A stretch of 64,000 nt of DNA from NCBI RefSeq assembly GCF_025128095.1, contig NZ_JAHLYT010000011.1, forward strand, positions 1 to 64,000. Reading direction: 5' to 3'. This document shows positions 33,490 to 56,181 of this stretch, piece after piece. The notes below the pieces were generated by a model. It saw only the letters and a list, made by a program, of their open reading frames with translations, did not search any database and had not been told where the DNA came from. The stretch comes from Synechococcus sp. CS-1328. GTDB taxonomy: Bacteria > Cyanobacteriota > Cyanobacteriia > PCC-6307 > Cyanobiaceae. The number at the start of each line of letters is the position of its first letter. Within the stretch, counting starts at the first letter, position 1. The translations under genes were made by a program, and so were the position numbers.

Positions 33490-34203
33490 TTAGTAGGTAT
33501 AGCCCGCTAAGGCGATTTCACGGTCAAAGATGGTGGCTATCCTGGCCGCCTGATTGTCATTGAGCACCTCGCGGTAATGGCGACGGTCACTGCGGAATTG
33601 GCGCTTGGTCTCGGGTAGAAGAGGATTACCGCTGAGATTGAGCTCCTCAAAAATCCGATTGACCTCTGACTGGGCGTTTTCGAACTGGCAAAGACGATGT
33701 ACCGCAATTTCTCCGTTAAGGCTATAGATGGCACGGCTTTTCTCCGCGGCGTTGCGCAGTTGCTTTCCTTCGATGAATTGATCAAGGCTGATGGGCTCGG
33801 GTTGAGAGCGGGTGGTCCAGAAATAGTGAGAGATTGCTCGATCCCAGGGATTCCGAACAAAGCAGAATCTGAAACAGGAGTCCCAGTGCCGCCGCGGGAG
33901 GTACTCGAGAACCTGTGCGGCCGTGATGTGGGTGTGATAGCTGATCTTTTTCAAGTCCCTTTCGATAGGCTTTCCGGCCAGCTTCCGGCGCAGTCTTAAT
34001 CCTATGTGGGCGGGTAGGCTCTGCCATGGTATGTAGTTTCGTGGGCAGGGATAGCCAAGCTCTCTGCGGATTTTTTCGTCGCGGCCCAGCGGTGCGATCA
34101 CGTCTTTCTGGCTGCAGCAGCTGGAAAAGGCGATCCCGATCGAGGTGGATGCCGTCTTGCGGTTGGCGAGGAAGATAAAGCGATTGCTATGAGAAATGAT
34201 CAT
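33490..34203 (-). CDS. Sulfotransferase family 2-like protein
   Basis: A 237-residue sulfotransferase-fold protein. The 5'-phosphosulfate loop of PAPS is FLANRKTASTSIG near residues 10-22 and the 3'-phosphate site is FCFVRNPWDRAISHYFW near residues 113-129. Proteins of this type sulfate carbohydrates. Base composition is much less GC-rich than the neighbours (around 50% in sampled stretches against well over 60%), suggesting acquisition. No partner gene adjoins it, but two other sulfotransferase genes lie about 8-10 kb to the right. Confidence 0.82.
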   Translation of the reverse strand: MIISHSNRFIFLANRKTASTSIGIAFSSCCSQKDVIAPLGRDEKIRRELGYPCPRNYIPWQSLPAHIGLRLRRKLAGKPIERDLKKISYHTHITAAQVLEYLPRRHWDSCFRFCFVRNPWDRAISHYFWTTRSQPEPISLDQFIEGKQLRNAAEKSRAIYSLNGEIAVHRLCQFENAQSEVNRIFEELNLSGNPLLPETKRQFRSDRRHYREVLNDNQAARIATIFDREIALAGYTY

Positions 34204-37704: not shown

Positions 37705-38817
37705 TTGCTGGAGCCCGTGCGCTTGCGTCCCCTGAGATTCCTGCTGCCCGGCACCACCGGCCGGTTCCGCTGCGGCGGCCTGCTGGTCGAGCTGCAGACC
37801 CTGCGCCTGCTGCAGGAGATCGTGCCGGCGGAGGTGGTGACCTACCGCAAGCGGGAGGAGGGTCTGGCCTTTCTGGATGATCTGCTGGCGGCAGAGGAGC
37901 CACCCGGTGAGGCCCTCTGGATCGTGAGCTGGGGGTTCGAGGTGCCGCGCCAGTTGCGCCAGCTGCGCGGCCGGCCTGTGGCCTATCACGCCCACAGCAG
38001 CGGTTACGGGTTCTCCTTGCCCGCCGCCGTGCCGGTGTTGGCGGTGAGCCGAAACACGCTCGGCTACTGGGGCGATGCGGCGCCGCGCCAGCCCCTGTTT
38101 CTGGTGCCGAATGCCCTCGAGGGCGACTGGATGGCGCGCGGCCTCCGGCCAGGCGGCCCTGCCGCTGGCGGCGATCGGACCGGTGCTGACGGGACCGAAG
38201 GCAATGGGCTGGAGGGCCGCCGCCCGATTGATGTGCTGGTGCAGCAGCGCAAGAGCAGTGCCTACGTGCTCACGCAACTGGTGCCGGCCCTGCGCCGCCA
38301 GGGGCTGCGGGTGGAGGTCCAGAGCGGCTGGGTGGACGATCTGGTGGATCTGTTCAACCGGGCCACGGTGGTGCTCTACGACTCGGCCGACTACTGGCGG
38401 GGGCGGGGCGTGACCGAAGGGTTCGGGCTGCCGCCGCTGGAGGCTCTGGCCTGCGGCTGTGTTGTGTTCAGCAGCCTCAACCACGCCCTGGCCGACAGCC
38501 TCGATCCCGGGCTGATCGCCCATCAGATCGGCGCCGGCAGCCTGGCCGCTGACCTGGAGCGGATCACTGCCGCCGTGCAGCATCCCACGACCTGGCGCGC
38601 TGACCCTGCCCGCCTCCAGCCCCTGCTGGAGGCCTGCAGTGAGCCGGTGCTGCGGCAGCGCTGGCGCCATGCCCTCGAGGAGATCAACCGCCACTGGGAC
38701 CGGATCGGCGCCGGCGAGCCGCCGCTACTGGCTCCACCCCGCTGGCAGCTGCGCTGGCGACAGCGGGCGGATCGCTTGCGGCGCCTGCTTTCCCGCCAGC
38801 TTGGGTCGATCGGTTAA
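37705..38817 (+). CDS. Glycosyltransferase (GT4-like)
   Basis: A protein of up to 370 residues. The C-terminal domain has the retaining-GT pattern GVTEGFGLPPLEALACGCVV (about residues 237-256), in which two glutamates usually contact the donor sugar. The N-terminal domain has GTTGRFRCGGLLVELQ. The start is uncertain: TTG at 37705, or GTG/TTG at 37717 and 37723. Middle residues 145-172 are a Gly-rich insert. It is the first gene of the surface-glycan region and precedes the ABC exporter by 71 bases. Confidence 0.8.
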   Translation: MLEPVRLRPLRFLLPGTTGRFRCGGLLVELQTLRLLQEIVPAEVVTYRKREEGLAFLDDLLAAEEPPGEALWIVSWGFEVPRQLRQLRGRPVAYHAHSSGYGFSLPAAVPVLAVSRNTLGYWGDAAPRQPLFLVPNALEGDWMARGLRPGGPAAGGDRTGADGTEGNGLEGRRPIDVLVQQRKSSAYVLTQLVPALRRQGLRVEVQSGWVDDLVDLFNRATVVLYDSADYWRGRGVTEGFGLPPLEALACGCVVFSSLNHALADSLDPGLIAHQIGAGSLAADLERITAAVQHPTTWRADPARLQPLLEACSEPVLRQRWRHALEEINRHWDRIGAGEPPLLAPPRWQLRWRQRADRLRRLLSRQLGSIG

Positions 38818-38888: not shown

Positions 38889-40745
38889 GTGCGGCTGCCG
38901 AAAAGCCAGACACTCGATCAGCTTCGGCAGCTCCTTCTGACCCTCCCGAAATCACTCAGGCGGCAGTTTTATTGGCTGCTGCCGTTGGCAGTGTTGCCGG
39001 GCGTTCTTGATATCTTGTCGGTGGGCATTCTGGCCCAGCTGATGTCTTCGCTGTTGATGTCGAAGGCGAAGCGGCAGATTATTCCGATACATATTCCCGG
39101 CTCAGATCGCTTTGAGTTTGTCCTCTTCCTGATCGGCGCCTTCATCCTGATCTCATGGCTACGCTCTCTGGCGCGTCTGTGGCTGGTGATTTCGCAGGAG
39201 CAGTATATCGAACGCATGTGGCTCTATCTGACCGATCATCTCTATCGCGGCATTCTCTACCTTCCCTACGAGTTTCATCTCGCCCAGGATGACTCCAAGC
39301 TGGCGACGCAACTGCTCACCAATGTCACCAAGGTGACACGCGGTATTCTGCGGCCCTGTCTGCCGTTGTTTTCGTCGTTCTTCTCGGTGGTGTTGCTCAC
39401 TGGCGGCATCCTCTACGTGGGGCGCTGGTATGCGCTCGGTTTGTTCGCTGGCCTCACGCTCGCCTACGGCCTGTTCTCGGTGTTCATGACGCCCTATCTG
39501 CGCCATGCCGAGCGGCAGAAGCTCTACCTGGCTTCTCAGATGAAGCAGACGTTCATCGACTCGATGACGATGATCCGCGAGATCCAGCTTTACGCCGCCG
39601 AAGATTTCTATGGCGATTCCTTCCGCGACAAGGCTCAGGAGGCCAAGAAGTTCGAGTTCCTCAATACTCTGCTGCCTTGGTTCCCCAAGCTCACGATTGA
39701 GCCGCTTGGCATCACGCTGATTTTTTCCTTCGCCATCTTTCCGGCCCTGCTTGGCGGTGGTTTCTCTGATCTGAAGCAGGTCATCCCCTTCCTGGCCACC
39801 CTGGCCCTGGCCTCGCTGCGCCTCACCCCAGCCCTGCAGGAAACCTTCGCCTCGATCACCAAGCTCCGCTCCGGTCTGCCGAACATCTCCAGCCTGCTGA
39901 AGCTGATGAAGATCGCCGATGAGGGCAGTGAGATCCCCGCGGCGGTTCTGGGGCCGGGAGGCACCCCCATGAGCCGGCAGGCCTTCATTCCCCGCCGCAC
40001 GATCCGGCTGGATCGGATCACCTACGCCTATCCCGCAACCAACCACTCCACAATCACCGACCTCACCCTCACCATTCCGGTGGGGTCCCGCGTGGCCTTC
40101 GTGGGGTCCACCGGCAGCGGCAAAACCACCACGGGCCTGCTGTTGCTCTCGCTGCTCACGCCCCAGAAAGGACAGCTGCTGATCGATGGCACCCCCCTGG
40201 ATGCGCAGGATCGGCGTGCCTGGCAGTCCTGCTGTTCCTACGTGCCCCAGATCGTCAGCTTCACCCGCGGCAGCGTGCTGGAAAACATCGCCTTCGGCGA
40301 AGATCCCGATCAGGTGGATCTCAACCTGGTCTGGGAGTCGCTGGAATCGGCCCAGCTCGCCGAGGTGGTGGCCGAACTGCCCTATGGCCTCTACACGCCG
40401 ATCGGTCGCGATGGCCTGCGGCTCTCAGGCGGCCAGCGCCAGCGGCTTGCTCTGGCGCGGGCCTTCTACCGACGCACCGAGGTGCTGCTGCTCGATGAGG
40501 CGACCAGTGCCCTCGACAACAAGACGGAATCGGAGGTGATCGAGGCGCTCGAGATCATCGGCCGCCGCTGCACCACGATCGTGATCGCCCACCGCCTCTC
40601 CACCATCGTGCGCTGCGATCGGATCTACGAATTCGAGGCGGGCCGGATCAAGGCAGCCGGCAATTTCGAACAGCTGCGGGCTGCTTCCGCCAGCTTTGAA
40701 GAGCTGGTGGCCACCCTGGAGCGCAGCCTCGCGGCCGCCTCGTGA
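38889..40745 (+). CDS. ABC exporter, fused permease-ATPase (MsbA/PglK-like flippase)
   Basis: A 618-residue half-transporter. Six membrane helices cover about residues 25-330, followed by an ATPase with Walker A STGSGKTT (about 408-414), Q-loop PQIVSFTRGSVLENI, signature LSGGQRQRLALARA and Walker B LLLDEATSALD. The homodimer would flip a lipid-linked or amphipathic cargo. Its place at the head of glycosyltransferase genes suggests a glycan or glycolipid. It starts at GTG with an upstream AAAGG. The first few hundred bases are less GC-rich than the rest. The next gene starts inside its stop (GTGA). Confidence 0.92.
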   Translation: MRLPKSQTLDQLRQLLLTLPKSLRRQFYWLLPLAVLPGVLDILSVGILAQLMSSLLMSKAKRQIIPIHIPGSDRFEFVLFLIGAFILISWLRSLARLWLVISQEQYIERMWLYLTDHLYRGILYLPYEFHLAQDDSKLATQLLTNVTKVTRGILRPCLPLFSSFFSVVLLTGGILYVGRWYALGLFAGLTLAYGLFSVFMTPYLRHAERQKLYLASQMKQTFIDSMTMIREIQLYAAEDFYGDSFRDKAQEAKKFEFLNTLLPWFPKLTIEPLGITLIFSFAIFPALLGGGFSDLKQVIPFLATLALASLRLTPALQETFASITKLRSGLPNISSLLKLMKIADEGSEIPAAVLGPGGTPMSRQAFIPRRTIRLDRITYAYPATNHSTITDLTLTIPVGSRVAFVGSTGSGKTTTGLLLLSLLTPQKGQLLIDGTPLDAQDRRAWQSCCSYVPQIVSFTRGSVLENIAFGEDPDQVDLNLVWESLESAQLAEVVAELPYGLYTPIGRDGLRLSGGQRQRLALARAFYRRTEVLLLDEATSALDNKTESEVIEALEIIGRRCTTIVIAHRLSTIVRCDRIYEFEAGRIKAAGNFEQLRAASASFEELVATLERSLAAAS

Positions 40746-41923
40746 GCCCCGGCCTCGATATCACCCTGCTGGCCACGGCCGACTGGGACCATCCCTTCTG
40801 GACCAACAAACAGCACGTGGCTGTGAGTCTGGCGGAGCTGGGGCATCGGGTGCTCTACGTGGATTCCCTCGGCCTGCGGCCCCCCACCCTGGGGCAGCGG
40901 GATCGGGGCCGGCTGTGGCGGCGCCTGCGGTTGGCCTTTCCCAGGCCGCGGCCTGTGCGCCCTGGAATCTGGGTGATCTCGCCGCTGCAGTTGCCCCTGC
41001 CAGCGGGTCCATGGGTGGACCGCCTCAACAGCCTGGTGCTGCGCGCCACCCTGGCCCTGGCCCGGCTGCAGCTGGGCCTGCGCCGCGACCTGCTCTGGAC
41101 CTACAACCCCCGCACGGCGACTGTGCTGCCGGTGCAGGCCTACCGGCGTTCGCTCTATCACTGTGTCGATGCGATCGATACGCAGCCGGGGATGGATGGC
41201 CCCCGGATCCGGCGCGACGAACAGCAGCTCTGCCGCCAGGTGGATGGGGTCGTTGCCACCACCCCGGTGTTGCTGGAACGCTGCCGGCCGCTGGCTCGGC
41301 GCTGCACCTTGCTGCCCAATGCGGTGGATGTGGAGCATTTCCGCCAGGCGCTGGATCCCGCCTTGCCCCTGCCGGCCGATCTGGCCTGCATCCCGGCACC
41401 GCGGCTTCTGTTCGTGGGGGCGATCGCGGCCTACAAGATGAACATGGAGCTGCTGGCGGCAGTGGCCCGCTGCCATCCGGACTGGTCGATCGTGCTGATC
41501 GGGGCGGTGGGTGAAGGGGATCCCGCCACGCTGATCACCCCCCTGCTGGATTGCCCCAACATCCACCGCCTCGGCCCGCGGCCCTATGGGGCCTTGCCGG
41601 CCTATCTCAAGGGGGCGGCGGTGGGGTTGATCCCGGCGCGGATCAATGCCTATACCCAGGCCATGTTCCCGATGAAGTTCTTCGAGTACCTGGCGGCTGG
41701 CCTGCCCGTGGTGGCCACGCCGCTGCCGGCCCTCGCTCCCTACGACGGTGTGGTGGCCCTGGCGGCCGAGGCCGAAGCCTTTGCCGCAGCGGTGGCGAAG
41801 GCTCTGGTGCCGGATCCTGTGGCTGCCGCCGAGCGCCTGCGGCTTGCCGGTACCGTCACCTACAGCGAGCGCAGTCGCCGCATGCTGGCGTTTCTGGAGA
41901 GCGAGCCGCAGGGGCACTGCTAG
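40742..41923 (+). CDS. Glycosyltransferase, GT4-like
   Basis: A 393-residue protein starting at GTG within the stop codon of the ABC exporter gene, so the two are translationally coupled. The N-terminal half has TADWDHPFWTNKQHVAVSLA, typical of the TuaH-like glycosyltransferase group. The C-terminal half has FEYLAAGLPVVATPLPAL near residue 318. A nucleotide-sugar donor is expected; the acceptor is unknown. It is 50 bases before the first of two paralogous sulfotransferase genes. Confidence 0.87.
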   Translation: MSPGLDITLLATADWDHPFWTNKQHVAVSLAELGHRVLYVDSLGLRPPTLGQRDRGRLWRRLRLAFPRPRPVRPGIWVISPLQLPLPAGPWVDRLNSLVLRATLALARLQLGLRRDLLWTYNPRTATVLPVQAYRRSLYHCVDAIDTQPGMDGPRIRRDEQQLCRQVDGVVATTPVLLERCRPLARRCTLLPNAVDVEHFRQALDPALPLPADLACIPAPRLLFVGAIAAYKMNMELLAAVARCHPDWSIVLIGAVGEGDPATLITPLLDCPNIHRLGPRPYGALPAYLKGAAVGLIPARINAYTQAMFPMKFFEYLAAGLPVVATPLPALAPYDGVVALAAEAEAFAAAVAKALVPDPVAAAERLRLAGTVTYSERSRRMLAFLESEPQGHC

Positions 41924-41973: not shown

Positions 41974-42789
41974 ATGCCCCCGTTAAAGCTGATCTACATC
42001 ACCAGCAATAGCCATAGCGGTTCCACCTTGCTGGACATGTTGATCGGCTCCCATTCCGCCTGCCTGACGCTGGGTGAAATCCATAAGCTCACCGCCAAAT
42101 CGGAAGGGGAATGTGCCTGTGGGGCATCCAGTTTTGCCACCTGCCTATTCTGGCAGGACGTGTCCAGCCGGCTTGAGGCCTCCGGCTCGCCACCCTTGGC
42201 CGACCTGCAGATTCATGCCACCGATCCGGTTGCGTTTCGTGATGCCAATCGTTGCCTGCTCACGGTGTTGCAGCAGAAGACAGGCTGCGCGGTGTTCGTC
42301 GATTCCTCCAAGAAACTCTCCCGCCTGAAGCTGCTGCTTCAGGATCCCGATCTGCAGGTGCTGCCGGTGCACATCGTGCGGCGGCCGGAAGGCGTGGTGT
42401 GCTCCAACATCGCCAAGGGACGCCCCTGGGGTGAGGAGCTGGAGATCTACCACCGCAATCTCTGGCCCCGCTACGACCTGCTCCGCCATCACCCCCATCT
42501 GCTCGTGTCCTACGAGAGCCTCTGCCGCCAACCGGAGCAGGTGCTGGGACGGATCATGCAGGCGGCCGGACTTGCCTTTGAGCCCGACCAGCTGGACTGG
42601 ACCCGGCACGAGCATCACAACGTCAACGGCAACAAGCGCACCCGCACCAGCCGCGCCTCCACGATCCGTCTGGATGAGCGCTGGCGTCGTCAGCTTTCCC
42701 GCCGCCAGCGCCTGGCGATCCGGCTGGCCCAGGCGCGCTTCCGCCTGCGGTTGCTGCTGCGGTTCGGGCTCTGGCCGCGGCCCCTCTGA
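41974..42789 (+). CDS. Sulfotransferase (PAPS-dependent), paralogue A
   Basis: A 271-residue sulfotransferase-fold protein. The PAPS loop is ITSNSHSGSTLLD (about residues 9-21). The 3'-phosphate region holds VDSSKKLSRL and VHIVRRPEGVV. Between them is CACGASSFATCLFW, a CxC-x7-C-x2-W motif also present in the second paralogue downstream. It probably sulfates a sugar built by the surrounding glycosyltransferases; that target is inference. The stop is followed after 1 base by the start of the next gene. Confidence 0.85.
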   Translation: MPPLKLIYITSNSHSGSTLLDMLIGSHSACLTLGEIHKLTAKSEGECACGASSFATCLFWQDVSSRLEASGSPPLADLQIHATDPVAFRDANRCLLTVLQQKTGCAVFVDSSKKLSRLKLLLQDPDLQVLPVHIVRRPEGVVCSNIAKGRPWGEELEIYHRNLWPRYDLLRHHPHLLVSYESLCRQPEQVLGRIMQAAGLAFEPDQLDWTRHEHHNVNGNKRTRTSRASTIRLDERWRRQLSRRQRLAIRLAQARFRLRLLLRFGLWPRPL

Positions 42790-42790
42790 G

Positions 42791-43819
42791 ATGGGTGTGA
42801 GGCCCACCGGCATGCGGCGCCTGGCCCCCTGGAGCTGGGCACTGGCCTGGCTGCGGCTGGCTGCGGTGATCGTCTGCGAGCGGCTGGATCAGCCGCGCCG
42901 GGGCCGGCGTTGGCTGGAGCGCTGGTGCTGCGCCCCCGCTGCTGCCCCCCTGTTGCTGGAAGCCCTGGCCTTGCGCTGTTGCGCTGATGGCGACGTCGAA
43001 GTGGCTCTGGATCTGTTCATCCGCCTCTGGTGCGACTGGGGCAGCAGCGAGCTGTTGTATCGCCTGCTGTTCCGCCGCCGCTTCCGCTCCGCCCACGCCC
43101 GTGACCATGCCCTTCTGCTGCAGAGGATCGCGGCGGCTGAGCCCCTGCCGGCCCACTTCCGCGCCTATGGCGCCATCGCCTGGGCCTACCGCACCCTGGA
43201 AGCCCAGGATCCCGAGTCGATGGCGGCGGCAGTGGAGCCGATCGCCCGGCTGGCCGAAGAGCTGGAGGCGGATCCCGGAACGCCCAGCTGTGGGCGGGCG
43301 GATCGGGAGAACAGGGCCAAGCTGCTGATCTCCTGTTACACGGTGCTGGGGCGGCTGCACTTCTCCCTGGAGGATTTTCCGGCCTTTTCATCTGTGGCGC
43401 GGCGTTCTGCCCAGTTGGCGGAGCAGCTCGATCCCGATCGGATCGACGCCGATGTGAGCTACCGCCTGCTCAGCAATTTGCTGCGCTGCCTGGGCTGTGC
43501 CTGGCTGGAGGCCTGGTCGCGCCAGGACGCAGCGGCTCTGGCCCAGGTGACGGCCCGCATCGAGGCGGTGGTGCGGGAGGCCCAGTCGCCCCGGCACCAG
43601 GACTCCTCAGCCCGCGAAGACCATGCCGGTTTCGCGCGCCAGGTGGCAGCTGCCCTGGAGGGGCTCAGCCTGGAGGACCGGCGACTGGAGCCCCTCTATC
43701 CCCTGGTGGCGCTGCTGTTCAAGAAAAAAGTGGATGGCCACGGCTTTCGCACCCGGATCGCCCCGGCGCTGCAGCGCTACCGCGATGCCGCTCTGCCCGG
43801 GTTGCCCGCTTCGTCCTGA
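42791..43819 (+). CDS. Unknown helical protein between two sulfotransferases
   Basis: A 342-residue protein, alpha-helical throughout with TPR-like spacing but no clear repeat consensus. It has an Arg/Trp/Cys-rich N-terminal third (RRWLERWCCAP), an acidic middle and the tail KKKVDGHGFRTRIAPALQRYR. No signal peptide is obvious; one weak hydrophobic segment lies near residues 15-30. It is coupled on both sides: 1 base after paralogue A, and its stop overlaps the ATG of paralogue B. Its position suggests a partner or scaffold for sulfation. I do not recognise it. Confidence 0.75.
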   Translation: MGVRPTGMRRLAPWSWALAWLRLAAVIVCERLDQPRRGRRWLERWCCAPAAAPLLLEALALRCCADGDVEVALDLFIRLWCDWGSSELLYRLLFRRRFRSAHARDHALLLQRIAAAEPLPAHFRAYGAIAWAYRTLEAQDPESMAAAVEPIARLAEELEADPGTPSCGRADRENRAKLLISCYTVLGRLHFSLEDFPAFSSVARRSAQLAEQLDPDRIDADVSYRLLSNLLRCLGCAWLEAWSRQDAAALAQVTARIEAVVREAQSPRHQDSSAREDHAGFARQVAAALEGLSLEDRRLEPLYPLVALLFKKKVDGHGFRTRIAPALQRYRDAALPGLPASS

Positions 43820-44751
43820 TGACGGTTTCGTTGATGCCGCCTCTGTCGCCGCCTTCGCCACGGCTCTCGGTCCCGCCCCTGCGGGTGCTCTACATCACCA
43901 GTCGCGGCCACAGCGGTTCGACGCTGCTGGATCTGCTGCTCAGTGGGCACTCCGGCCTCACCAGCGTGGGCGAGATCAAGATGCTCACCGCCGCCGATCG
44001 CAGCCGCAAGCGCTGCAGCTGCCACGGCCTCGATCCGCTGGAGTGTCCCTACTGGAGTTCGGTGCAGGACCAGCTGCAGGCCAGCACCGGCCTGCGTTTC
44101 GCCGACCTGCGGCTCGACAGCGTCGACCCCTGGGTGAACCATGGCCACAACCTGGCGCTCTACGAGAGTGTGGCGGCGGTGAGCGGTTGCCGAATCATCG
44201 TGGATTCCTCCAAGAGTCTGCCGCGGTTGCGTGATCTTCTCCAGGGCCAGGAGCTCTACGGCGGCTATGCGCTGCTGCCGATTCATCTGCTGCGGGGGCC
44301 GCTGGGGCTGGTGCACAGCTATGTCAGGAGGGGGGATGATCTGCGCGAGGTTTGTTACAACTACGCCAATGGCTATTTTCGTGCTGATGATCTGCTCCAT
44401 CGCCGCCGCCATCTGTTGGTGCACTACGAGCGCCTCGCCGGCCAGCCGCGCCGTGAACTGCAGCGGCTGATGGCGGCGATCGGCCTGCCCTTCGAGCAGG
44501 CCCAGATGGACTGGGGCCGCGGACCGCGCCGCAACATCCATGGCAACGACATGCGCTTCAAGGCGGGCGGACCGATCCGGCTCGATCGCTCCTGGAGGCT
44601 TGGCCTCACCCCGCTGCAGATCCTGCAGGTGCTGTGGTTCACCTTGCCGGTGCGCCTGCGGCAGCGGCGGCTCACCAGTCGGCGCCTGATGCGGCTCTGG
44701 CGGCTGCGTTACAAGCCCACTGCCATGGCCTCAGGCAGCCGGCCGGATTGA
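43819..44751 (+). CDS. Sulfotransferase (PAPS-dependent), paralogue B
   Basis: A 310-residue sulfotransferase sharing the same order of motifs as paralogue A: PAPS loop ITSRGHSGSTLLDLLLSGHS (about residues 26-45), CSCHGLDPLECPYW, VDSSKSLPRLRDLLQ and a HLLRGPLGLVHS 3'-phosphate region. It is longer at both ends. The ATG overlaps the preceding stop and its own stop overlaps the start of the next glycosyltransferase gene, so translation is coupled. It likely adds sulfate to a second position or sugar. Confidence 0.85.
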   Translation: MTVSLMPPLSPPSPRLSVPPLRVLYITSRGHSGSTLLDLLLSGHSGLTSVGEIKMLTAADRSRKRCSCHGLDPLECPYWSSVQDQLQASTGLRFADLRLDSVDPWVNHGHNLALYESVAAVSGCRIIVDSSKSLPRLRDLLQGQELYGGYALLPIHLLRGPLGLVHSYVRRGDDLREVCYNYANGYFRADDLLHRRRHLLVHYERLAGQPRRELQRLMAAIGLPFEQAQMDWGRGPRRNIHGNDMRFKAGGPIRLDRSWRLGLTPLQILQVLWFTLPVRLRQRRLTSRRLMRLWRLRYKPTAMASGSRPD

Positions 44752-45923
44752 TGGGCGATCCCCCGTTGCAGCCGTCGCCCGGGCCGGTGGTGCTGTACAT
44801 CGATGCGCTCAAGGCCGGTGGTGCCGAGCGGATCACGCTGCAGTGGGCCCAGTGGTTGCAGCAGGCCGGCCGGCCGGTGCTGCTGCTCACCCGCCACGGG
44901 CCGGAGCGTGATTTCTACCCCCTGCCCGCCGGGCTTGATCGCCGCGTCGAGCCGCCCGAGCCCCGCTGGCTCAAGGCCCTCGGCTGGTGGGGCTTCCCGT
45001 GGCGATTGCTGCGGCTGCGCAGGCTGCTGCGCCAGCTGCGCCCCTGCCTGGTGCTTGGGATCACCACCCTGCCGGCGATCAAGCTGCTGCTGGTCAGCGC
45101 CGGTCTGCCCTGGGCCGTGGTGGTGTCGGAGCGCAACTATCCGCCGGCCAAGCCGCCCGCCCTGCCCTGGCGCTGGCTGCGCCGGCTCACCTATCCGCGC
45201 GCGGCGGCCCATCTCGTGCAGACCCGCCGCACCCTGGCCTGGCTGGTCTCCACCCAGGCCGTGCCGGAGTCGCGCTGCCATCTGGTGCCCAACCCGATCG
45301 GCTGGCCCCTGGCCGATTTCCCGCCACGGCTCGCCCCCGCCGCCCTGATCCCCGTCGGCGCCTCGCTGATGCTGGCGGTGGGCACCAAGCCCCACCAGAA
45401 GGGATTCGACCGGCTGCTGGCGGCCTTTGCCCGCCTGGCGCCGCGCCATCCCAGCTGGCATCTGGTGATCCTCGGCCTCGATCCGGCCAGCGGCAGCCAT
45501 CGCCGCGCCGTGGCGGATCTGGTGGCGCAGTGGCAGGCCGACCCGCTGCTGCGCCAGCGGGTGCATCTGCCGGGCCCGGTGGGCAACGTGGCCGATTGGT
45601 ACGGGGCCTGCGATCTGTTTGTGCTCAGCTCCCGCTACGAGGGGTTTCCGAACGTGTTGCTTGAGGCCATGGTGAGCGGCTGTGCCTGCCTGGCCTGCGC
45701 CTGCCCCACCGGACCGGAGGAGATCGTGCGCCATGGGCAGGATGGCTGGCTGGTGCCGGCCGAGGCCGATGCGGCGTTGCTGGAGCGTGAACTGGAGCGG
45801 CTGATCGACGATCCCCTTGTGCGGCGCCGCCTCGGCAGCGAGGCCGGCGCCGTGCGGCAGCGCTACGGCGACGCCACGGTGCGTGAGCAGTTTCTTGCAG
45901 CCCTTCAGCCCCTGATGCCCTGA
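44751..45923 (+). CDS. Glycosyltransferase family 4-like
   Basis: A 390-residue GT-B glycosyltransferase. The N-terminal domain begins VVLYIDALKAGGAERIT, where GGAE is typical of GT4 acceptor-side loops. The C-terminal donor domain has LAVGTKPHQKGFDRLLAAF and the E-x7-E motif in SRYEGFPNVLLEAMVSG (about residues 295-311). It starts on the last base of the preceding stop and is 14 bases before the next glycosyltransferase gene. Confidence 0.92.
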   Translation: MGDPPLQPSPGPVVLYIDALKAGGAERITLQWAQWLQQAGRPVLLLTRHGPERDFYPLPAGLDRRVEPPEPRWLKALGWWGFPWRLLRLRRLLRQLRPCLVLGITTLPAIKLLLVSAGLPWAVVVSERNYPPAKPPALPWRWLRRLTYPRAAAHLVQTRRTLAWLVSTQAVPESRCHLVPNPIGWPLADFPPRLAPAALIPVGASLMLAVGTKPHQKGFDRLLAAFARLAPRHPSWHLVILGLDPASGSHRRAVADLVAQWQADPLLRQRVHLPGPVGNVADWYGACDLFVLSSRYEGFPNVLLEAMVSGCACLACACPTGPEEIVRHGQDGWLVPAEADAALLERELERLIDDPLVRRRLGSEAGAVRQRYGDATVREQFLAALQPLMP

Positions 45924-45937
45924 GCCGCGCCTCCGCC

Positions 45938-47269
45938 ATGTCCGCGCCCCTACCGATCACCGCGCCCCCGTCGTCGCAGGGTGACGATCTCTGGATCGTG
46001 CTGCCCCATCTGGGCCCCGGCGGTGCCCAGAAGGTGGCGGTGCTGGCGGCGGGCCACTTCGCGGCCTGCGGTCTGCGGGTGCGGCTGATCACCCTGCTGC
46101 CCGATCAGCCGGCCGTGCTGGAGCCTCCGCCCGGGGTGGAGCACATCGACCTGGGCCCGCTGGTGGCCAGCGACCGGCAGCGGCAGGGCCCCTGGGTGGA
46201 TGTCTCGGATCGCTCGCCGCTGGCGATCGCTCGGCGGGTGGCGGTCCTCTGGATCGGCCGGATCCGGCGCCGCCTTTCGCCGCTGGGCCTGCGCCTGCTG
46301 CTCGGGCTGCAGCTTCCCCTCTGGCCGCCCGCGACGGGTTGGCGTGGCGGCCTGCAGCGCCTGTTGCTGCGGCTGACCCGCAACGTGGGAGGCCCCCAGG
46401 GGGCTCGCCTGCGCCAGCTGGTGCAGCGGCAGCGGCCCCAGCGGCTGCTAGCCCTGCTGAGCCGCACCAACATGTTGTCCGCTCTGGCGGTCTGGGATCT
46501 GCCGATCCATCTGGTGGTGTCGGAGCGGAACGATCCCCGCCTGCAGCACCTGCCCTTCCCCTGGAACCGGCTGCGGCCTCTGCTCTATGGCCGCGCCGAT
46601 GTGGTGACCGCCAACACCAGCGGGGTGCTGGCGGTGCTGCGCCAGTTCCCGCAGCCGTTCCGGCGGCTGGAGCTGCTGGCCAATCCCCTGCCCCAGACCC
46701 AGCGCCCCGGTGAGCGGCTGCCCCTGGCGGAGCGCTCGCGCGAGTTCCTCACGGTCTGCCGGCTGGTGCCCCAGAAGGGGGTGGACGTGCTGCTGGAGGC
46801 CTTTGCCCTGCTGCCGCTGCCGATCCGTCAGGAATGGCGGTTGCGGATCGTGGGCGATGGCCCCGAGCGCGCCGCCCTGGAGCGGCAGGCCCGCCAGCTG
46901 GGGATCGCCGCGCAGGTGAGCTTCGAGGGCTTCTGCAGCGATCCGCCCCGCTTCTTTCGCCAGGCGCCGATCTTCGTGCTGCCCTCCCGCTTCGAAGGCA
47001 TGCCCAATGCCCTGCTGGAGGCGATGGGCTTCGGCTTGGCGTCGGTGGTCACCGATGCCTCGCCCGGCCCCCTGGAGCTGGTGGAGCCGGGTGTCACCGG
47101 GCTGGTGGTGCGCAGCGGCGACGCGGCGGCTCTGGCGGCGGCTCTGCAGCAGCTGGTGGAGGATCCGGAGCTGCAGCAGCGCTGCGGCGCGGCGGCGGCG
47201 GAGCTGCTGCGCCGGCACGACTGGCCGGTGCTCGAGCCGGTCTGGCGCGACCTGCTCAACCTCGCCTGA
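45938..47269 (+). CDS. Glycosyltransferase family 4-like
   Basis: A 443-residue GT-B enzyme with LPHLGPGGAQKVAVLAA near the N-terminus, VCRLVPQKGVDVLLEAF at the start of the donor domain and the E-x7-E motif in SRFEGMPNALLEAMGFG. It is somewhat longer than the other family members because of an Arg/Leu-rich insertion at about residues 85-155. It is head-to-tail between two similar genes, but the sequence is diverged enough to suggest a different linkage rather than a recent copy. Confidence 0.92.
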   Translation: MSAPLPITAPPSSQGDDLWIVLPHLGPGGAQKVAVLAAGHFAACGLRVRLITLLPDQPAVLEPPPGVEHIDLGPLVASDRQRQGPWVDVSDRSPLAIARRVAVLWIGRIRRRLSPLGLRLLLGLQLPLWPPATGWRGGLQRLLLRLTRNVGGPQGARLRQLVQRQRPQRLLALLSRTNMLSALAVWDLPIHLVVSERNDPRLQHLPFPWNRLRPLLYGRADVVTANTSGVLAVLRQFPQPFRRLELLANPLPQTQRPGERLPLAERSREFLTVCRLVPQKGVDVLLEAFALLPLPIRQEWRLRIVGDGPERAALERQARQLGIAAQVSFEGFCSDPPRFFRQAPIFVLPSRFEGMPNALLEAMGFGLASVVTDASPGPLELVEPGVTGLVVRSGDAAALAAALQQLVEDPELQQRCGAAAAELLRRHDWPVLEPVWRDLLNLA

Positions 47270-47270
47270 G

Positions 47271-48461
47271 GTGGCCGCCCCTACGCCCCTGCGCCTGCTG
47301 GTGTTCGCCCCCTCGCGGCGGGCGCCCTCGGAGACCTTCATCCGCGCCAATCTGGCCGGCCTCGCCTGCGACACGGTGGCCTACTGCGGCGACGAACGGC
47401 CCTGGGGTGGCCCGCCCCTGCGCCTCGCCTACGGCCTGGCGATCCTGGTCAGCAAGGCCTGCTACCGCCTGGCCGCCCTGGTGCCGCTGGAGGTGTTGCA
47501 GCGCTTCGGCACCTGGCTGCCCTCCCGGGTGGCGATCCGCATCTGCCGCTACGAGAGGCCCGATCTGGTGCTGGCCGAATTCGGCTTCCACGCGGTGCGG
47601 GTGATGGAGCTGGTGCCGGCCACCGGCCTGCCTCTGATCGTCCATTTCCGTGGCTCCGATGCCTCCTCCCGCCGCTACCTCGACACGCTGCGGCCCCGCT
47701 ATCGCCGCCTGCTGCAGCTGGTGGCGGCGGTGGTGGTCAAGTCGGAGCCGATGCGCGTCACCTTGCTGGCCCTGGCGACGCAGCGCCAGCGACCCCTGCC
47801 GGTGCTGATCAGTCCCTCGGGGGCCGATCCCGCCCGCTTCGCCGGCGCCGATCCCGCCGCGGCCCCGCCCCACTTTCTGGCGGTGGGCCGGTTCGTGGCC
47901 AAGAAGGGGCCGCTGCTCAGCCTCGAGGCCTTCGCCCGCGCCAGCTCAGGCCATCCCGACTGGCGGCTGGAGATGGTGGGAGAGGGGCCCCTGCTGGCCC
48001 TGGCCCGCCAGCGGGCCAGCGACCTCGGCCTCGGCGATCGGGTGATTTTCGCCGGCCTGCTGCCGCCGGCGGCCATCGCCGAGCGCCTGCGGGGGGCGCG
48101 GGCCTTCCTGCAGCATTCGCTCACCGCACCGGACGGGGATCAGGAGGGATCGCCGGTGGCGGTGCTGGAGGCCCAGCTCAGCGGCCTGCCGGTGGTGGCG
48201 ACCCGCCACGCCGGCATCCCTGAGGTGGTGCAGCACGGGGTGACGGGCCTGCTGGTGGAGGAGGGCGACGTGGCGGCGATGGCGGAGGCGATCCGCCGTC
48301 TGGGGGAGGACCCAGCCCTGGCCGGCCGGCTGGGGGCGGCGGGGCAGCGCCGTTGCCAGGAGCACTTCACGGTGCAGCACCACCTGCAGGCCCTGCAGGG
48401 CCTGATCGAGCAGGTGGCTGCCGCGCCGACGTCGCCGCCCGGCGATAGCCTCAGCCCGTGA
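47271..48461 (+). CDS. Glycosyltransferase family 4-like (WcaL-like)
   Basis: A 396-residue GT-B enzyme starting at a GTG one base after the preceding stop. LVFAPSRRAPSETFIRANL at the N-terminus and IVHFRGSDASSR match the exopolysaccharide GT4 group that includes WcaL. AVGRFVAKKGPLLSLEAFA and EGSPVAVLEAQLSGLPVVATRHAGI form the donor site. The end overlaps the helicase gene by four bases (GTGA). Confidence 0.92.
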   Translation: MAAPTPLRLLVFAPSRRAPSETFIRANLAGLACDTVAYCGDERPWGGPPLRLAYGLAILVSKACYRLAALVPLEVLQRFGTWLPSRVAIRICRYERPDLVLAEFGFHAVRVMELVPATGLPLIVHFRGSDASSRRYLDTLRPRYRRLLQLVAAVVVKSEPMRVTLLALATQRQRPLPVLISPSGADPARFAGADPAAAPPHFLAVGRFVAKKGPLLSLEAFARASSGHPDWRLEMVGEGPLLALARQRASDLGLGDRVIFAGLLPPAAIAERLRGARAFLQHSLTAPDGDQEGSPVAVLEAQLSGLPVVATRHAGIPEVVQHGVTGLLVEEGDVAAMAEAIRRLGEDPALAGRLGAAGQRRCQEHFTVQHHLQALQGLIEQVAAAPTSPPGDSLSP

Positions 48462-50857
48462 GCTTTCTTGCCGGCCTCAACGACGCCCAGCGCCGGGCGG
48501 TGGACCACCACACCGGTCCCCTGCTGGTGGTGGCGGGGGCCGGCAGCGGCAAGACCCGCGCCCTCACCCATCGCATCGCCCACCTGATCGGCCACCACGG
48601 CGTCGATCCGGCCGATCTGCTGGCGGTGACCTTCACCAACAAGGCCGCCCGGGAGATGAAGGAGCGGCTGGAGCTGCTGCTGGCCCAGAAGCTGGCCCAG
48701 AGCCAGTTCGGCCAGCCCTGGAGCACCCTGCCACTGGTGCAGCAGAAGCAGCTGCGCAGCCGCATCTACCGGGAGGTGATCAAGGAGCTGTGGATCGGCA
48801 CCTTTCATGCCCTGTTCGCGCGGCTGCTGCGCTTCGATATCGACAAGTTCCACGACCCCGAAGGCCTGCGCTGGACGCGGCAGTTCTCGATCTACGACGA
48901 GAGCGACGCCCAGACGCTGGTGAAGGAGATCGTGACCCAGGAGCTGGGGCTGGACCCGAAGCGCTTCGAACCCAAGAAAGTGCGCTGGGCGATCAGCAAC
49001 GCCAAGAACCAGGGCTGGCTGCCGGAGCAGCTGGAGGCCAAGGCGGAGGGGGTGCGGGGCCGCAAGGAGGCCGAGGCCTATCGCCTCTATCGCCGCGCCC
49101 TGGCCGCCAACAACGCCCTCGATTTCGATGATCTGCTGCTGCTGCCGGTGCAGCTGCTGCGCCAGAACGAGCAGGTGCGGAACTACTGGCACCGTCGCTT
49201 CCGCCATGTGCTGGTGGACGAATACCAGGACACCAACCGCACCCAGTACGACCTGATCAAGCTGCTGGTCACCAATGGTCGGGACCCTGCCGCCTATGAC
49301 GACTGGGCAGGCCGCTCGGTGTTCGTGGTGGGCGACGCCGATCAGAGCATCTACAGCTTCCGCGCCGCCGACTTCACGATCCTGATGGGTTTTCAGGACG
49401 ATTTCGGCGACGGCGCTGCCGATGAGGCCACCAGCACCATGGTGAAGCTGGAGGAGAACTACCGCTCCACCGCCACGATCCTGGAGGCGGCCAACGCCCT
49501 GATCGCCCACAACAGCGAGCGGATCGACAAGATCCTCCGCCCCACCCGCGGCGAAGGGGAGTTGATCACCCTCACCCGCTGTGACGACGAGATCGCCGAG
49601 GCCGAGGCGGTGGTGCACCGCATGCGCATGCTCGAGGCCGCCCATCCCGATCTGCGCTGGGGCGACATGGCGGTGCTGTATCGCACCAATGCCCAGAGCC
49701 GGGCGATGGAGGAGGCCCTGGTGCGCTGGGGGATTCCTTACATCGTGGTGGGTGGGCTGCGCTTCTACGACCGGCGCGAGATCAAAGATGTGCTCGCCTA
49801 CCTGCGGCTGCTGGTCAATCCGGCCGACACGGTGAGCCTGCTGCGGGTGCTGAATGTGCCCCGCCGCGGCATCGGCAAGACCACGATCGAGCGGCTCACT
49901 GATGCCTCCAATCAGCTGGGGATTCCGTTGTGGGAGGTGGTGAGCGATGCCGAGGCGGTGCGCTCCCTCGGCGGGCGTTCGGCCAAGGGGCTGCTGCAGT
50001 TCCATGAACTGATCAGTGATCTGCAGCGCCGCGTCCAGGACGCTCCACCCTCTGAGCTGGTGCAGCGGGTGCTGGAGCAGAGCGGCTATCTGGCCGAGCT
50101 GATCGCCGCCGGCACCGATGAAGCCGAAGACCGGCGCCGCAACCTCAACGAACTGGTGAATGCCGGTTTGCAGTATCAGGAGGAGAACGAGGAGGGGGAT
50201 CTGGAGGGGTTCCTGGCCTCGGCCGCCCTGGCCAGCGACGCCGACAGCAAGGACACCGACCAGGACCGCGTCACCCTGATGACCCTGCACGCCAGCAAGG
50301 GGCTGGAGTTCCCGGTGGTGTTTCTGGTGGGGATGGAGCAGGGCCTCTTCCCCAGCTACCGCTCTCTGGAGGATCCCGCCGCCCTGGAGGAGGAGCGCCG
50401 CCTCTGCTACGTGGGCATCACCCGTGCCAAGGAGCGTCTGTTTCTCTCCCATGCCAGCGAAAGGCGCCTCTGGGGCGGCATGCGCGAGCCGGCGGTGCCC
50501 TCGGTGTTTCTCTCGGAGCTGCCTGAGGAACTGGTGCAGGGCGACATCCCGCGCTCCGGCGGTGCGGCCCTGCGCCGGGAGCAGCGGCTTGATCGGCTCA
50601 CCCGTGTCGATCGAGTGGAGTCCCGCCGCGTGGAGGGTGGTGGGGAGGCCGGCGTCGCCGCCAATGCGGTGCGGCGCCGCGCCGGTGTGGCCCGGAGCTG
50701 GGTGGTGGGTGACCGGCTGCGCCATGCCGCCTTCGGGGACGGCCATGTGACCCATCTGTTCGGCAGTGGCGAGAAGATCTCGATCGCCGTGAAGTTCGAA
50801 GGCATGGGCCCGAAGATCCTCGATCCGCGCCTGGCGCCGATTGAGCCGCTGGTCTGA
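48458..50857 (+). CDS. pcrA: ATP-dependent DNA helicase, UvrD/PcrA type
   Basis: A 799-residue superfamily 1A 3'-5' helicase. Motif I is VVAGAGSGKTRALTHR (about residues 24-39), then TFTNKAAREMK, motif II VDEYQDTN, motif III VGDADQSIYSFR, motif IV NYRST, motif V TLMTLHASKGLEFPVVF and motif VI YVGITRAKERL. It acts in DNA repair and in clearing replication blocks. It starts at GTG inside the stop of the glycosyltransferase gene, an unusual coupling of a repair gene to a glycan operon. Confidence 0.93.
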   Translation: MSFLAGLNDAQRRAVDHHTGPLLVVAGAGSGKTRALTHRIAHLIGHHGVDPADLLAVTFTNKAAREMKERLELLLAQKLAQSQFGQPWSTLPLVQQKQLRSRIYREVIKELWIGTFHALFARLLRFDIDKFHDPEGLRWTRQFSIYDESDAQTLVKEIVTQELGLDPKRFEPKKVRWAISNAKNQGWLPEQLEAKAEGVRGRKEAEAYRLYRRALAANNALDFDDLLLLPVQLLRQNEQVRNYWHRRFRHVLVDEYQDTNRTQYDLIKLLVTNGRDPAAYDDWAGRSVFVVGDADQSIYSFRAADFTILMGFQDDFGDGAADEATSTMVKLEENYRSTATILEAANALIAHNSERIDKILRPTRGEGELITLTRCDDEIAEAEAVVHRMRMLEAAHPDLRWGDMAVLYRTNAQSRAMEEALVRWGIPYIVVGGLRFYDRREIKDVLAYLRLLVNPADTVSLLRVLNVPRRGIGKTTIERLTDASNQLGIPLWEVVSDAEAVRSLGGRSAKGLLQFHELISDLQRRVQDAPPSELVQRVLEQSGYLAELIAAGTDEAEDRRRNLNELVNAGLQYQEENEEGDLEGFLASAALASDADSKDTDQDRVTLMTLHASKGLEFPVVFLVGMEQGLFPSYRSLEDPAALEEERRLCYVGITRAKERLFLSHASERRLWGGMREPAVPSVFLSELPEELVQGDIPRSGGAALRREQRLDRLTRVDRVESRRVEGGGEAGVAANAVRRRAGVARSWVVGDRLRHAAFGDGHVTHLFGSGEKISIAVKFEGMGPKILDPRLAPIEPLV

Positions 50858-50879
50858 GCGGCGATTGCGGAGATCTGGC

Positions 50880-52183
50880 CATGCACTCGGATCCGCCTGT
50901 GCCTGCCACCCGCCCCTCTATTACGGCCTGCTCTGGCTCTTGGGCCAGTTGGTGCCCGGCACGGCCCGGTTCCTGCGGCTGTTCTCCTGGGGGGCCTACC
51001 TGTTGGGCGAGGGGGTGATCGTGGCCCAGGTGGCTCAGATGGCCCGGCCCCTGGCGCCCCCACGGCGCCATCTGGCTGTGGGGTTGGTCGTGATCCTGGC
51101 CTTCTGCAGTCCCTTCCCGATTCGCTTCTCGATCGAGGCCAAGGGCTATGCGCTGCTGGTGCTCTGGATCGCCCTGGCCCTTCTCTGCCGGCGCCGCTGG
51201 CACCAGGAGGGCAAGCTGGCTGATGGCATCGGCTACGGACTGGCCCTGGCCGCTGCCGGCCTTACCCACTACTACGGCCTCTTCTACGGGATCGCCCTGG
51301 CGCTCACCGAGCTGGCGGCGACCTGGCGGCCCCTGCGACTGCGGTTGCAAAGTGTGGGAAGTCTGCCTGTTGACAGCGCTGCCCTGCCTGGCCTGGATCT
51401 GGCACAGCCGCCGCTATCTGCTGGAGGGATCGGAGGCCGGTGACTGGATCGGCAGGCCCGATGGCGGCATGGCTGAGGAGGTGCTGGCGCGGGCCCTGGG
51501 ACCCTGGCCGCTGCCGAAGCTGGCCCTGCTCCTGGTGATGGGAGCGTTTGATCTGGTGCTGTGCCGCCGGCGTGTCACGGCGGAGGTTGGCCTTCCAGTT
51601 GGCAACCAACGCCCCTGGCTGGCCTGGCTGGACGGGTCTGTCCTGCTCTCCGGCGGCGTGCTGGTGTTGATGGTGGTGGGGGTGTCGTTTGGCCCTGGCT
51701 GCAGCCCTGGTGCTCTCCTTCTGGGCCGATTCCTTCCCCCCCTTGCAACCGGGCGGGGTGTTCCAGGGATCGCGCGAGACGAACGACTTTCGCCTGCTGG
51801 TGCTGGCCAGTCAGGACACGGCCGTTCGGATCAGCCCACGGGCCCATCATTTCCGCACGGCCGAGCGGCTGCTGCGCAACGCCGGCACGGTGAATCCAGC
51901 CCAGGTGTCACCAGGCCCCGTGCTGTCCAGTGCTGCCCCGCCGGGCCTGGACTCCTGGGGCGATCTGCGCGATCTGCGCCGCCTGCTGCGCCGCCAGCAC
52001 CCTCCAGATCGCCTAGTGCTGGCCGAGACCGGGGGCCCGGACTCGGTGCAGCGCCGCATCGATCCGGCCCTGGCCTGGGTCGAGGAGCTGGGCTATGCCT
52101 GCCGCCGCGATCTGCCCGGCCGGCCCCACCTGCGCCTCTATCGCTGCCGCTGGCCCGCAGCCGCTCAGAGGCTGGAGGGCTGA
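50880..52183 (+). pseudogene. Remnant of a GT39-like membrane glycosyltransferase
   Basis: Three overlapping frames continue one another: first to about 51345 (PPLYYGLLWLLGQLVPG, a GT39-like HPPLYY segment, then membrane helices), then from about 51347 to 51685 (VWEVCLLTALPCLAWIW, more helices), then from about 51689 to the stop at 52181-52183 (soluble tail with LVLAETGGPD). The first coding stretch begins at the HPPLYY-like region, so the N-terminal part with the catalytic Asp-Glu loop of this family is missing. Two +1 frame changes are needed. The end overlaps kdsA by 19 bases tail to tail. Confidence 0.7.
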
Positions 52184-53742: not shown

Positions 53743-54626
53743 TCCGCGTGCCTCGTTCCGTCAGTCCTGATCCCGCCTCACCGCTGCCCACGATCGTGGC
53801 GGTGCCGGCCCGGCTCGCCTCCAGCCGCCTGCCCGGCAAGGTGATGGCCGACATCGGCGGCCAGCCGATGCTGCGGCGGGTGCTGGAGCGCTGCGCCGCC
53901 GCCGAGACCCCCGCCGCCGTGGTGCTCTGCACCGACAGCCAGGAGCTGGTGGAGGCCGCCGCCGCCTGGGGCTTCCCGGCGCTGCTCACCGCCGCCGACT
54001 GCCCCTCCGGCAGTGACCGGATCGCCTCGGTGGTGCAGACCCTGTTGACCATGGCCGGCACCGAGACGGCGCCCCTGAACGCCGAAACCGCCCTGGTGAT
54101 CAATGTGCAGGGCGATCAGCCCTTCCTCGATCCCGCCGTGATCGATGCCATGGCGGCCGAGTTCGGCCGGCGCCGGCCGCTGCCGCAGGTGCTCACGCCC
54201 GTCTATCGCCTCAGCGCCGCCAAGGTCCACAATCCCAACGTGGTGAAGACCCTGCTGGCCGCCGATGGCCGGGCCCTTTACTTCTCCCGCTCGGCGATCC
54301 CGCACGTGCGTGATGTGGATCCCGCCGCCTGGCCCGACCACGCCCCGTACTGGGGGCATGTGGGCCTCTACGGCTACCGCGCCGATGTGCTGGCCGGTTG
54401 GGCGGCGCTGCCCCACTCGCCGCTGGAGCAGTTCGAGAAGCTGGAACAGCTGCGGCTGATCGAAGCGGGCATCGGCATCGGCACCTTCCCGGTGGAGGGC
54501 GACTCCCTGTCGGTGGATACGGCCGAGCAACTCGAACAGGCGCGCCAGATCGCCGCAGGAGGCCTCGCGGCTCAGGGGATCGCGGCTCAGTCGTTGCGGT
54601 CGCGCCAGCCCTCGGCACAGAGCTGA
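53739..54626 (+). CDS. kdsB: CMP-KDO synthetase (3-deoxy-manno-octulosonate cytidylyltransferase)
   Basis: It activates KDO with CTP. The nucleotide-binding stretch [21 protein letters not shown] lies near residues 19-38; later come [14 protein letters not shown] and [15 protein letters not shown], and [19 protein letters not shown] is typical. The GTG at 53739 overlaps the previous stop; GTG at 53748 is an alternative. Length about 295 residues, including a C-terminal tail. Its 3' end overlaps kdsC by 40 bases tail to tail. Confidence 0.95.
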
Positions 54627-55162
54627 CGCCACTGCGGTCGCCGCCCCAGGATCCGCTCCACCAGCTCCCGCACGGCGCCGTTGCCGCCGCAGCGTTCCAG
54701 CACGGCATCGGCTTGCCGCCGCAGGGGCGGGGCCGCATCGGCCGGGGCCAGCAGCAGCCCCACGCAGGGGCGCACCGCCAGGTCGTTGAAGTCGTCGCCC
54801 ACAAAGGCGGTGCTGGCCGGCTCCAGGTCGAGCTGCTCCAGCAGCCGCGTCAGGGCGGCGGGTTTGTCCTTCACCCCCACCAGGCAGTGGCGGATGCCGA
54901 GATGGCGCGCCCGCGCCTCGGTGGCACCGCCCATGCCGCCGCTGAGCAGGGCCACCTCCAGCCCCGCCTGTTGCAGCAGGCGGATCCCCAGTCCGTCCCG
55001 CACATCGAAGCGCTTGAACAGCTCGCCGTTGGGGCCGTACCAGAGGCCGCCGTCGGTCAGCACCCCGTCCACATCGAGCACCACCAGGCGCAGCTGATCC
55101 AGGCGGGGCCCGAGCTGCCGCCAGCGCCGCCGCTGCCGCATCCTGTCGAGGGCGGCGATCAT
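54587..55162 (-). CDS. kdsC: KDO-8-phosphate phosphatase (HAD family)
   Basis: It removes phosphate from KDO-8-phosphate. The 191-residue cap-less HAD protein has motif I VLDVDGVLTDGGL (about residues 27-39), motif II LLSGG, the Lys of motif III in GVKDKP and motif IV VGDDFNDLAV. It starts with ATGA overlap on the end of kdsD, so the two are coupled. The tail-to-tail overlap with kdsB is 40 bases. Confidence 0.93.
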   Translation of the reverse strand: MIAALDRMRQRRRWRQLGPRLDQLRLVVLDVDGVLTDGGLWYGPNGELFKRFDVRDGLGIRLLQQAGLEVALLSGGMGGATEARARHLGIRHCLVGVKDKPAALTRLLEQLDLEPASTAFVGDDFNDLAVRPCVGLLLAPADAAPPLRRQADAVLERCGGNGAVRELVERILGRRPQWRQLCAEGWRDRND

Positions 55163-56181
55163 GGCTGGGGGCTCCGGCCACTGGTGAGGCCGGCCTGCAC
55201 CAGATCGTGCAGCCGCAGCAGCCCCTGCAGCTGCCTGTCCTCATCGGCGCCGGTGTTGGCCAGCACCGGCAGGATCGAGATCGGTTTGCGGCGGTTCCGC
55301 TCCATCCGCTCCAGGGCCTCCACCGCCAGCAGGCCCGGCCCCACCGTGATCGGATCGGCGGTCATCAGGTCGCGGGCCGTGAGCGTGGCCCAGGTGCCGG
55401 GGCCATGGGCCTGCAGGGCGCGGCGCAGGTCACCATCGGTGATCAGCCCCGCCAGCCGTTCGGGTTCGTCCGGGTGGGCGACCCAGCAGGCGCCGATCGC
55501 GTCCTGGGTCAGTTGGGCAATCACCGCCGGCAGGTCCGCCGATGGAGCCAGGGGGTGGAGACGGGCGGCCGGCACCATCAGATCGCTGACGCGCAGGGTG
55601 AGCTGGCGGCCGAGGCTGCCGGCCGGATGGTTGAGGGCGAAGTCCTGGGGGGAGATGCCGCGCCGCTCCATCCACACCGCCGCCAGGGCATCGCCGATCG
55701 CCATCGCCACCGCCGTGCTGGCGGTGGGGGCAAGGTTGAGCGGACAGGCCTCCCGGTCCACCGAGCCATCCAGCACCACATCGCAGCCCCGGGCCAGGCT
55801 GGAGGCCAGCCGGCCCACCAGGGCGATGCGGGCGCTGCCGCGGCGCTGCAGATGGGGCAGGATTTCCAGCAGCTCCTGGGTTTCGCCGCTGTTGGAGAGC
55901 AACAGGACCACGTCCTGCGGAGCCACCACCCCCAGGTCGCCGTGCAGGGCATCGAGGGGGCTGAGGTAGATCGCCATCAGGCCGATCGAGGAGAAGGTGG
56001 CCGCGATCTTGCGGGCCACGATGCCACTTTTGCCCACGCCGGTGATCACCAGCTTGGCCCGCTGCTCGGCGCAGCGATCAAGCAGCTCGAGGGCCGCCTC
56101 CACCTGGCCGGCATCGAGGCGACCGGCCGCGGCGGCGATCGCCCCGGCCTCCTCCTCCAGACAGCGCGTCAGGGCCGACAC
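55159..56181 (-). CDS. kdsD: Arabinose-5-phosphate isomerase (KpsF/GutQ family)
   Basis: It converts ribulose-5-phosphate to arabinose-5-phosphate for KDO. The N-terminal SIS domain has VITGVGKSGIVARKIAATFSS and LLSNSGETQEL, and two CBS repeats cover about residues 200-335 with ITDGDLRRAL. The start is uncertain: a GTG at 56181 gives 340 residues near the family norm, while an ATG at 56247 would overlap the divergent tRNA nucleotidyltransferase start. Its stop overlaps kdsC. Confidence 0.92.
   Translation of the reverse strand: MSALTRCLEEEAGAIAAAAGRLDAGQVEAALELLDRCAEQRAKLVITGVGKSGIVARKIAATFSSIGLMAIYLSPLDALHGDLGVVAPQDVVLLLSNSGETQELLEILPHLQRRGSARIALVGRLASSLARGCDVVLDGSVDREACPLNLAPTASTAVAMAIGDALAAVWMERRGISPQDFALNHPAGSLGRQLTLRVSDLMVPAARLHPLAPSADLPAVIAQLTQDAIGACWVAHPDEPERLAGLITDGDLRRALQAHGPGTWATLTARDLMTADPITVGPGLLAVEALERMERNRRKPISILPVLANTGADEDRQLQGLLRLHDLVQAGLTSGRSPQP

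Follow-up and report, generated by a model that had tools for sequence, protein, structure and literature searches.

A 342-residue protein encoded between two sulfotransferase genes of Synechococcus sp. CS-1328, here called B, is best described, from sequence comparisons, as the free-standing version of a helical domain that elsewhere is mostly the tail of a glycosyltransferase. We favor the view that glycosyltransferases of a Cyanobiaceae surface-glycan operon use it as an accessory domain, most likely for docking, in keeping with its fusions, gene order, the variable content of the adjoining slot, conservation, purifying selection, taxonomic range and predicted fold. On this view B most likely takes part in assembling the cell-surface glycan and is not dedicated to the flanking sulfotransferases, A and C. 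The stretch of DNA analyzed (the window, 64,000 nucleotides) carries B, which is single-copy in this genome, among the following genes.

37705..38817, + strand: gt32, a group 1 glycosyltransferase and conserved operon partner (26.1 bits against a cut-off of 26.4)
38889..40745, + strand: MsbA/PglK-like ABC transporter, conserved operon partner (profile matches, gene order, sequence similarity)
40742..41923, + strand: X, a GT4-type glycosyltransferase of 393 residues, fused to B in 31 of the 58 B genes (partial similarity to TuaH)
41974..42789, + strand: A, a sulfotransferase of 271 residues with PAPS-type motifs, occupying the slot between X and B (motifs, orthologues)
42791..43819, + strand: B, a helical protein of 342 residues, the unfused form of a C-terminal domain associated with glycosyltransferases
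43819..44751, + strand: C, a sulfotransferase paralogue of 310 residues, between B and gt38 (Pfam, phmmer)
44751..45923, + strand: gt38, a GT4-type glycosyltransferase (Pfam, gene order)
45938..47269, + strand: gt39, a GT4-type glycosyltransferase and operon partner (Pfam, gene order)
47271..48461, + strand: gt40, a GT4-type glycosyltransferase and operon partner (Pfam, gene order)

Fusions and neighbors were counted for 58 B genes from 56 genomes. In 31 of these B makes up the C-terminal half of a larger protein, about 740 residues long, the N-terminal half of which is orthologous to X, and in five more it is joined to a second, unrelated enzyme with weak GT2 and GT7C matches. Glycosyltransferases of two families are therefore fused to B in 36 of the 58 genes, the remaining 22 being unfused; a fusion to a sulfotransferase was seen in none of the 58. 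Within this one operon, B is a movable piece of glycosyltransferases. The separate X and B of the window tile the larger protein in both length and order, and residues 16-313 of the window B align with residues 416-717 of one such fusion (L011). In a tree of 54 B domains the window copy and that of its genus-mate (G023) join a clade of X-fused and Wzy-adjacent forms (36 rows, support 100/99), sitting just outside the 34-row X-fused and Wzy-adjacent clade (97/92), a placement that leaves room for two histories: the window form may predate the X-B fusion, or it may represent an early split. In another genome (G266, contig L122), B-like sequences lie between X and gt38, and also after gt40, broken by stop codons, which suggests that the domain is in the course of loss there.

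The order gt32, ABC transporter, X, B, gt38, gt39, gt40 is seen again across genera. In 50 of the 58 cases the gene directly after B is gt38, either by itself or fused to gt40; in three it is gt39 and in two C (the window and G023), and in the other three no scored gene lies close downstream. For the 22 unfused copies, the closest scored gene on the upstream side is of GT2 type in eight (two of them more than 900 nt off), X in five, TupA-like in four, Wzy-like in three and sulfotransferase A in two. Because these neighbors differ, the X-B junction appears to act as a slot for different tailoring genes, its contents being a GT2-type enzyme, a Wzy-like, TupA-like or sulfotransferase gene, or nothing. 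Three of the four TupA-like cases (G070, G155 and G290) form a TupA-like/B/gt39 group apart from X, so that the TupA-like gene is there a neighbor and not a slot filler; TupA stands between X and B only in G248. In the X-B slot of G149 a 378-residue gene with no Pfam match (L047, 7511-8647) separates the GT2-type gene from B. Most neighborhoods with X and no B are also devoid of gt38-gt40, a pattern that counts against our preferred explanation and would fit a B that works for the later enzymes and not for X. One genome (G238, L127) has kept X, gt38, gt39 and gt40 with B missing from the 460-nt gap between X and gt38, where tblastn revealed no clear remnant of it (best E 0.012); B thus seems to be dispensable there.

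No match to B was obtained in Pfam and NCBIfam at E<=1, nor in PADLOC and PHROGs at E<=0.01, which bears out its initial description as unrecognised, and a B profile run against the sequences of the PDB returned only two designed helical proteins, at chance level (best E 0.018). The viral contigs scanned held no relative. A single-sequence scan of genome contigs was likewise empty, because one B sequence is too divergent for a pattern search. With B as query the protein was found in 56 of 300 genomes of the same family, and in 57 with a profile built from 30 relatives; among 292 genomes sampled across the phylum, 13 had a match, all 13 in the window's own family. The range of B, as judged by similarity searches, is Cyanobiaceae-restricted, and its carriers include Prochlorococcus sp. 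MIT 0701 and Synechococcus sp. ATX 2A4, CS-1325 and UW105. Three contigs titled as Gammaproteobacteria MAGs (L095, L096 and L102) carry a cyanobacterial X-B fusion, that of L095 being 92% and that of L096 81% identical to the fusion of MIT 0701; these contigs are probably mis-binned. Searches of the literature found no paper on the B domain, by which absence from print is not implied, and locus-tag searches for a link to the swimming-motility glycosyltransferases of marine Synechococcus gave no match. An unannotated protein present in about one-fifth of the sampled family genomes thereby gains a family, a range, a fold prediction and a pathway. It joins the helical accessory domains on glycosyltransferases, a kind already known, of which B itself is an unnamed and lineage-restricted member.

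An AlphaFold2 model of B, built from nine sequences, is all-helical, as the sequence-only reading had proposed, with 16 helices, pLDDT 82 and pTM 0.81, and the predicted fold is a TPR-like alpha-solenoid. The term "TPR-like" describes appearance and not family membership: Pfam TPR models gave no match to the window B at E<=1, each model (TPR_19, TPR_14, TPR_4) matches only one or two of 30 relatives, weakly, and profile libraries found no repeat consensus. What B may share with TPR proteins is its predicted solenoid of helical hairpins; what sets it apart is that the window B matches no TPR model. Foldseek of the B model against solved structures gave no match at E<=0.001, and structure comparisons (Foldseek, VIA) gave a varied set (PCI, TPR, 14-3-3 and retromer proteins, designed solenoids) with no clear leader; the best structural Z, at most 11.2, is uninformative for helical repeats and within the range of noise. 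When the fused X-B of MIT 0701 was modeled, two good domains resulted (pLDDT 82) in an uncertain mutual arrangement (pTM 0.54), with no interface between glycosyltransferase and B confidently predicted, a result that weighs against the preferred explanation.

Conservation follows the helices of this model. Nineteen alignment columns are invariant in 30 B sequences, among them R99, C167, R172, N174, K177, S181, R225, N229, R232, E276 and H278. Conservation is higher in a helix than in the next long helix at 86-94 (0.50 versus 0.34), 121-138 (0.38 versus 0.28), 175-192 (0.54 versus 0.27), 223-243 (0.50 versus 0.25) and 278-290 (0.41 versus 0.31). Such alternation would be expected of a solenoid that binds, along its inner wall, something that all members of the family have in common, and we infer that the conserved helices form that wall. 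An active site would explain the invariant polar residues equally well.

The sequence-only reading had suggested that B could be a scaffold, recruitment factor or regulator of the sulfation pair, and had taken tight translational coupling as a frequent mark of a complex. Coupling on both sides of B is real, in that the stop codon of A is followed after 1 nt by the ATG of B (an alternative B start being possible at ATG 42812) and the stop codon of B has one base in common with the ATG of C (TGATG). Both junctions are identical in G023, although at 94% identity this is weak independent evidence. Tight coupling, however, runs through the whole operon: the gaps at the six other junctions, from the ABC transporter gene through to pcrA, lie between -4 and +50 nt (among them abc/X -4, C/gt38 -1, gt39/gt40 +1 and gt40/pcrA -4), and because four of the six are +1 or tighter, coupling is a trait of the operon and not of A-B-C alone. 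Values of dN/dS between the window genome (G000) and G023 are 0.16 for X, 0.05 for A, 0.19 for B and 0.20 for C, and all four genes are under purifying selection between these genomes.

That B might be a dedicated scaffold or regulator of both sulfotransferases, in an A-B-C complex, would fit the coupled junctions and also the joint occurrence of the genes, scored for sulfotransferases similar to A (in a search with the A sequence). Of the 74 X-bearing genomes, 42 have both a sulfotransferase and B and 19 have neither; B occurs without a sulfotransferase in 13, the reverse in none (Fisher, 1.6e-9). As evidence of a functional link this association was rejected, since its significance is lost on a tree of X covering 70 of the 74 genomes, where correction for descent leaves three well-supported independent contrasts, with none in the opposite direction, and significance is out of reach. 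Across all the genomes, moreover, 15 of 57 with B are devoid of any A-like gene and 12 of 54 with a sulfotransferase are devoid of B. Within 10 kb of B, 39 of the 57 B genomes have an A-like gene, mostly some 3.5 kb downstream and after gt40; one lies within 200 nt only in G000 and G023, and actual contact of sulfotransferases with B, in 2 of the 58 B genes, is confined to the window's genus, both sampled genomes of which have A-B-C. Two other genomes (G221 and G130) have orthologous A/C pairs side by side with no B between them, B being there the tail of X about 4 kb upstream; a sulfotransferase pair without the middle gene is what had been named beforehand as refuting such a complex. Taken with the lack of any sulfotransferase fusion among the 58 B genes, these distributions make an A-B-C complex quite unlikely. 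Scaffolding or recruitment is still the best guess for what B does, but the sulfation pair as its client gives way to glycosyltransferases, to which B is fused in the majority of cases, and what survives of the tie to sulfation is a glycan locus held in common. The neighborhood observed at the outset was real and its partner wrongly named, so that the present analysis corrects a reading based on guilt by adjacency.

Two further explanations do without sulfotransferases. B could be a ligand-binding or catalytic helical domain acting on a lipid-linked glycan, for example by binding (pyro)phosphate or modifying the glycan, and not a protein scaffold at all; the occurrence of the same invariant residues in fusions to two glycosyltransferase families is more readily explained by a small ligand in common than by a common protein partner, yet B resembles no enzyme family, and conserved grooves occur in helical-repeat scaffolds too, so we regard this as possible but improbable. 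Still harder to credit, and indeed very unlikely, is a role as a spacer governing chain length or termination, comparable to the helical parts of O-antigen terminators. It would be favored by the TPR-like helical bundle reported for the chain-terminating Kdo transferase (GT137) of Klebsiella pneumoniae O4 (PMC11231755). That enzyme resembles fused B in architecture, with the alpha-helical bundle C-terminal to a surface-glycan glycosyltransferase, and differs in adding a coiled-coil ruler, whereas B is without a ruler, is also free-standing and occurs on two types of glycosyltransferase. The model of B shows short helices in a row and lacks the long coiled coil that serves as the ruler in published terminators; the fusions of B involve glycosyltransferases of two families, and nothing resembling a terminator gene was recognised in the operon. 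The operon transporter is, in addition, MsbA/PglK-like, whereas the published terminators work with ABC-transporter-dependent O-antigen export.

Under the docking explanation that we prefer, the inner face of the solenoid, with its invariant set of Arg, Asn, Lys, Ser, Glu and His, would grip a common anionic ligand or an acidic partner in the pathway, an anionic ligand being the simplest guess because the invariant residues are mainly basic and amide. Docking by B would tether the enzymes that act in turn (X, the GT2-type enzyme, gt38) to one another or to the lipid-linked glycan. The stretch separating X from B would serve as a plug-in slot into which lineages insert different tailoring genes; in the window's genus the gene in the slot would be sulfotransferase A, with a second one, C, placed between B and gt38. 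The position of two sulfotransferases around a free-standing B suggests that the finished product of the operon is probably a sulfated surface glycan, and sulfation is best read as one optional step of a conserved surface-glycan operon. A bolder version, which we offer tentatively and do not expect to hold in full, is that B is the first member of a so far undescribed class of helical ligand-recognition domain, in which an invariant basic groove would read a common phosphate- or sulfate-bearing glycan intermediate shared by unrelated glycosyltransferases, and that X-B is a plug-in site where GT2, Wzy-like, TupA-like and sulfotransferase genes are swapped to alter the cell surface. The conserved operon with its variable slot marks a likely place where picocyanobacteria diversify their surface glycan, which plausibly matters for grazing and for phage attachment.

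The two sulfotransferases are paralogues, as initially noted, with 39.6% identity over 265 residues and a common order of motifs. Both contain HSGSTLLD, which we take to be the 5'-phosphosulfate loop, CxC-x7-C-x2-W (with the x7 spacing in both), VDSSK, and V/I-H-x-x-R-x-P-x-G-x-V-x-S, presumably the 3'-phosphate motif. C exceeds the Pfam Sulfotransfer_3 cut-off of 27 with 29.6 bits; A, at 23.6, falls below it though 40% identical to C. The solved structures closest to C in sequence are the CurM-type and olefin-synthase sulfotransferases 4gbm and 4gox (phmmer E 1.7e-5 for the CurM enzyme 4gbm), which act in polyketide chain termination and not in glycan sulfation. A recent duplication around B was considered and rejected, for C is nearer to its counterparts in G221 and G130 (46-47% identity) than to A (about 40%); with A 61% identical to its own orthologues in those genomes, the paralogy of A and C appears to be older. 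A third sulfotransferase is encoded 8 kb upstream on the opposite strand (33490-34203, - strand; Sulfotransfer_2, 26.9 bits against 22).

Among known systems, the Synechan (xss) cluster of Synechocystis PCC 6803 contains two sulfotransferases and many glycosyltransferases and makes a sulfated product (PMC8205485). It and the window operon, compared by description, are both cyanobacterial glycan clusters with two sulfotransferases; the window operon differs by its MsbA/PglK-like ABC transporter and by the lack of a recognised Wzx/Wzy set within it. Farther along the window, a membrane glycosyltransferase-like gene with a weak PMT_2 match (50841-52183, + strand) is split over three reading frames, whereas its counterpart in G023 is open for 454 residues to the end of the fetched stretch; the split copy is either a pseudogene or an assembly error. 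Beyond it (53796-56181) a cytidylyltransferase, a HAD hydrolase and a SIS+CBS protein are clustered, presumably as a kdsB/kdsC/kdsD set for Kdo synthesis.
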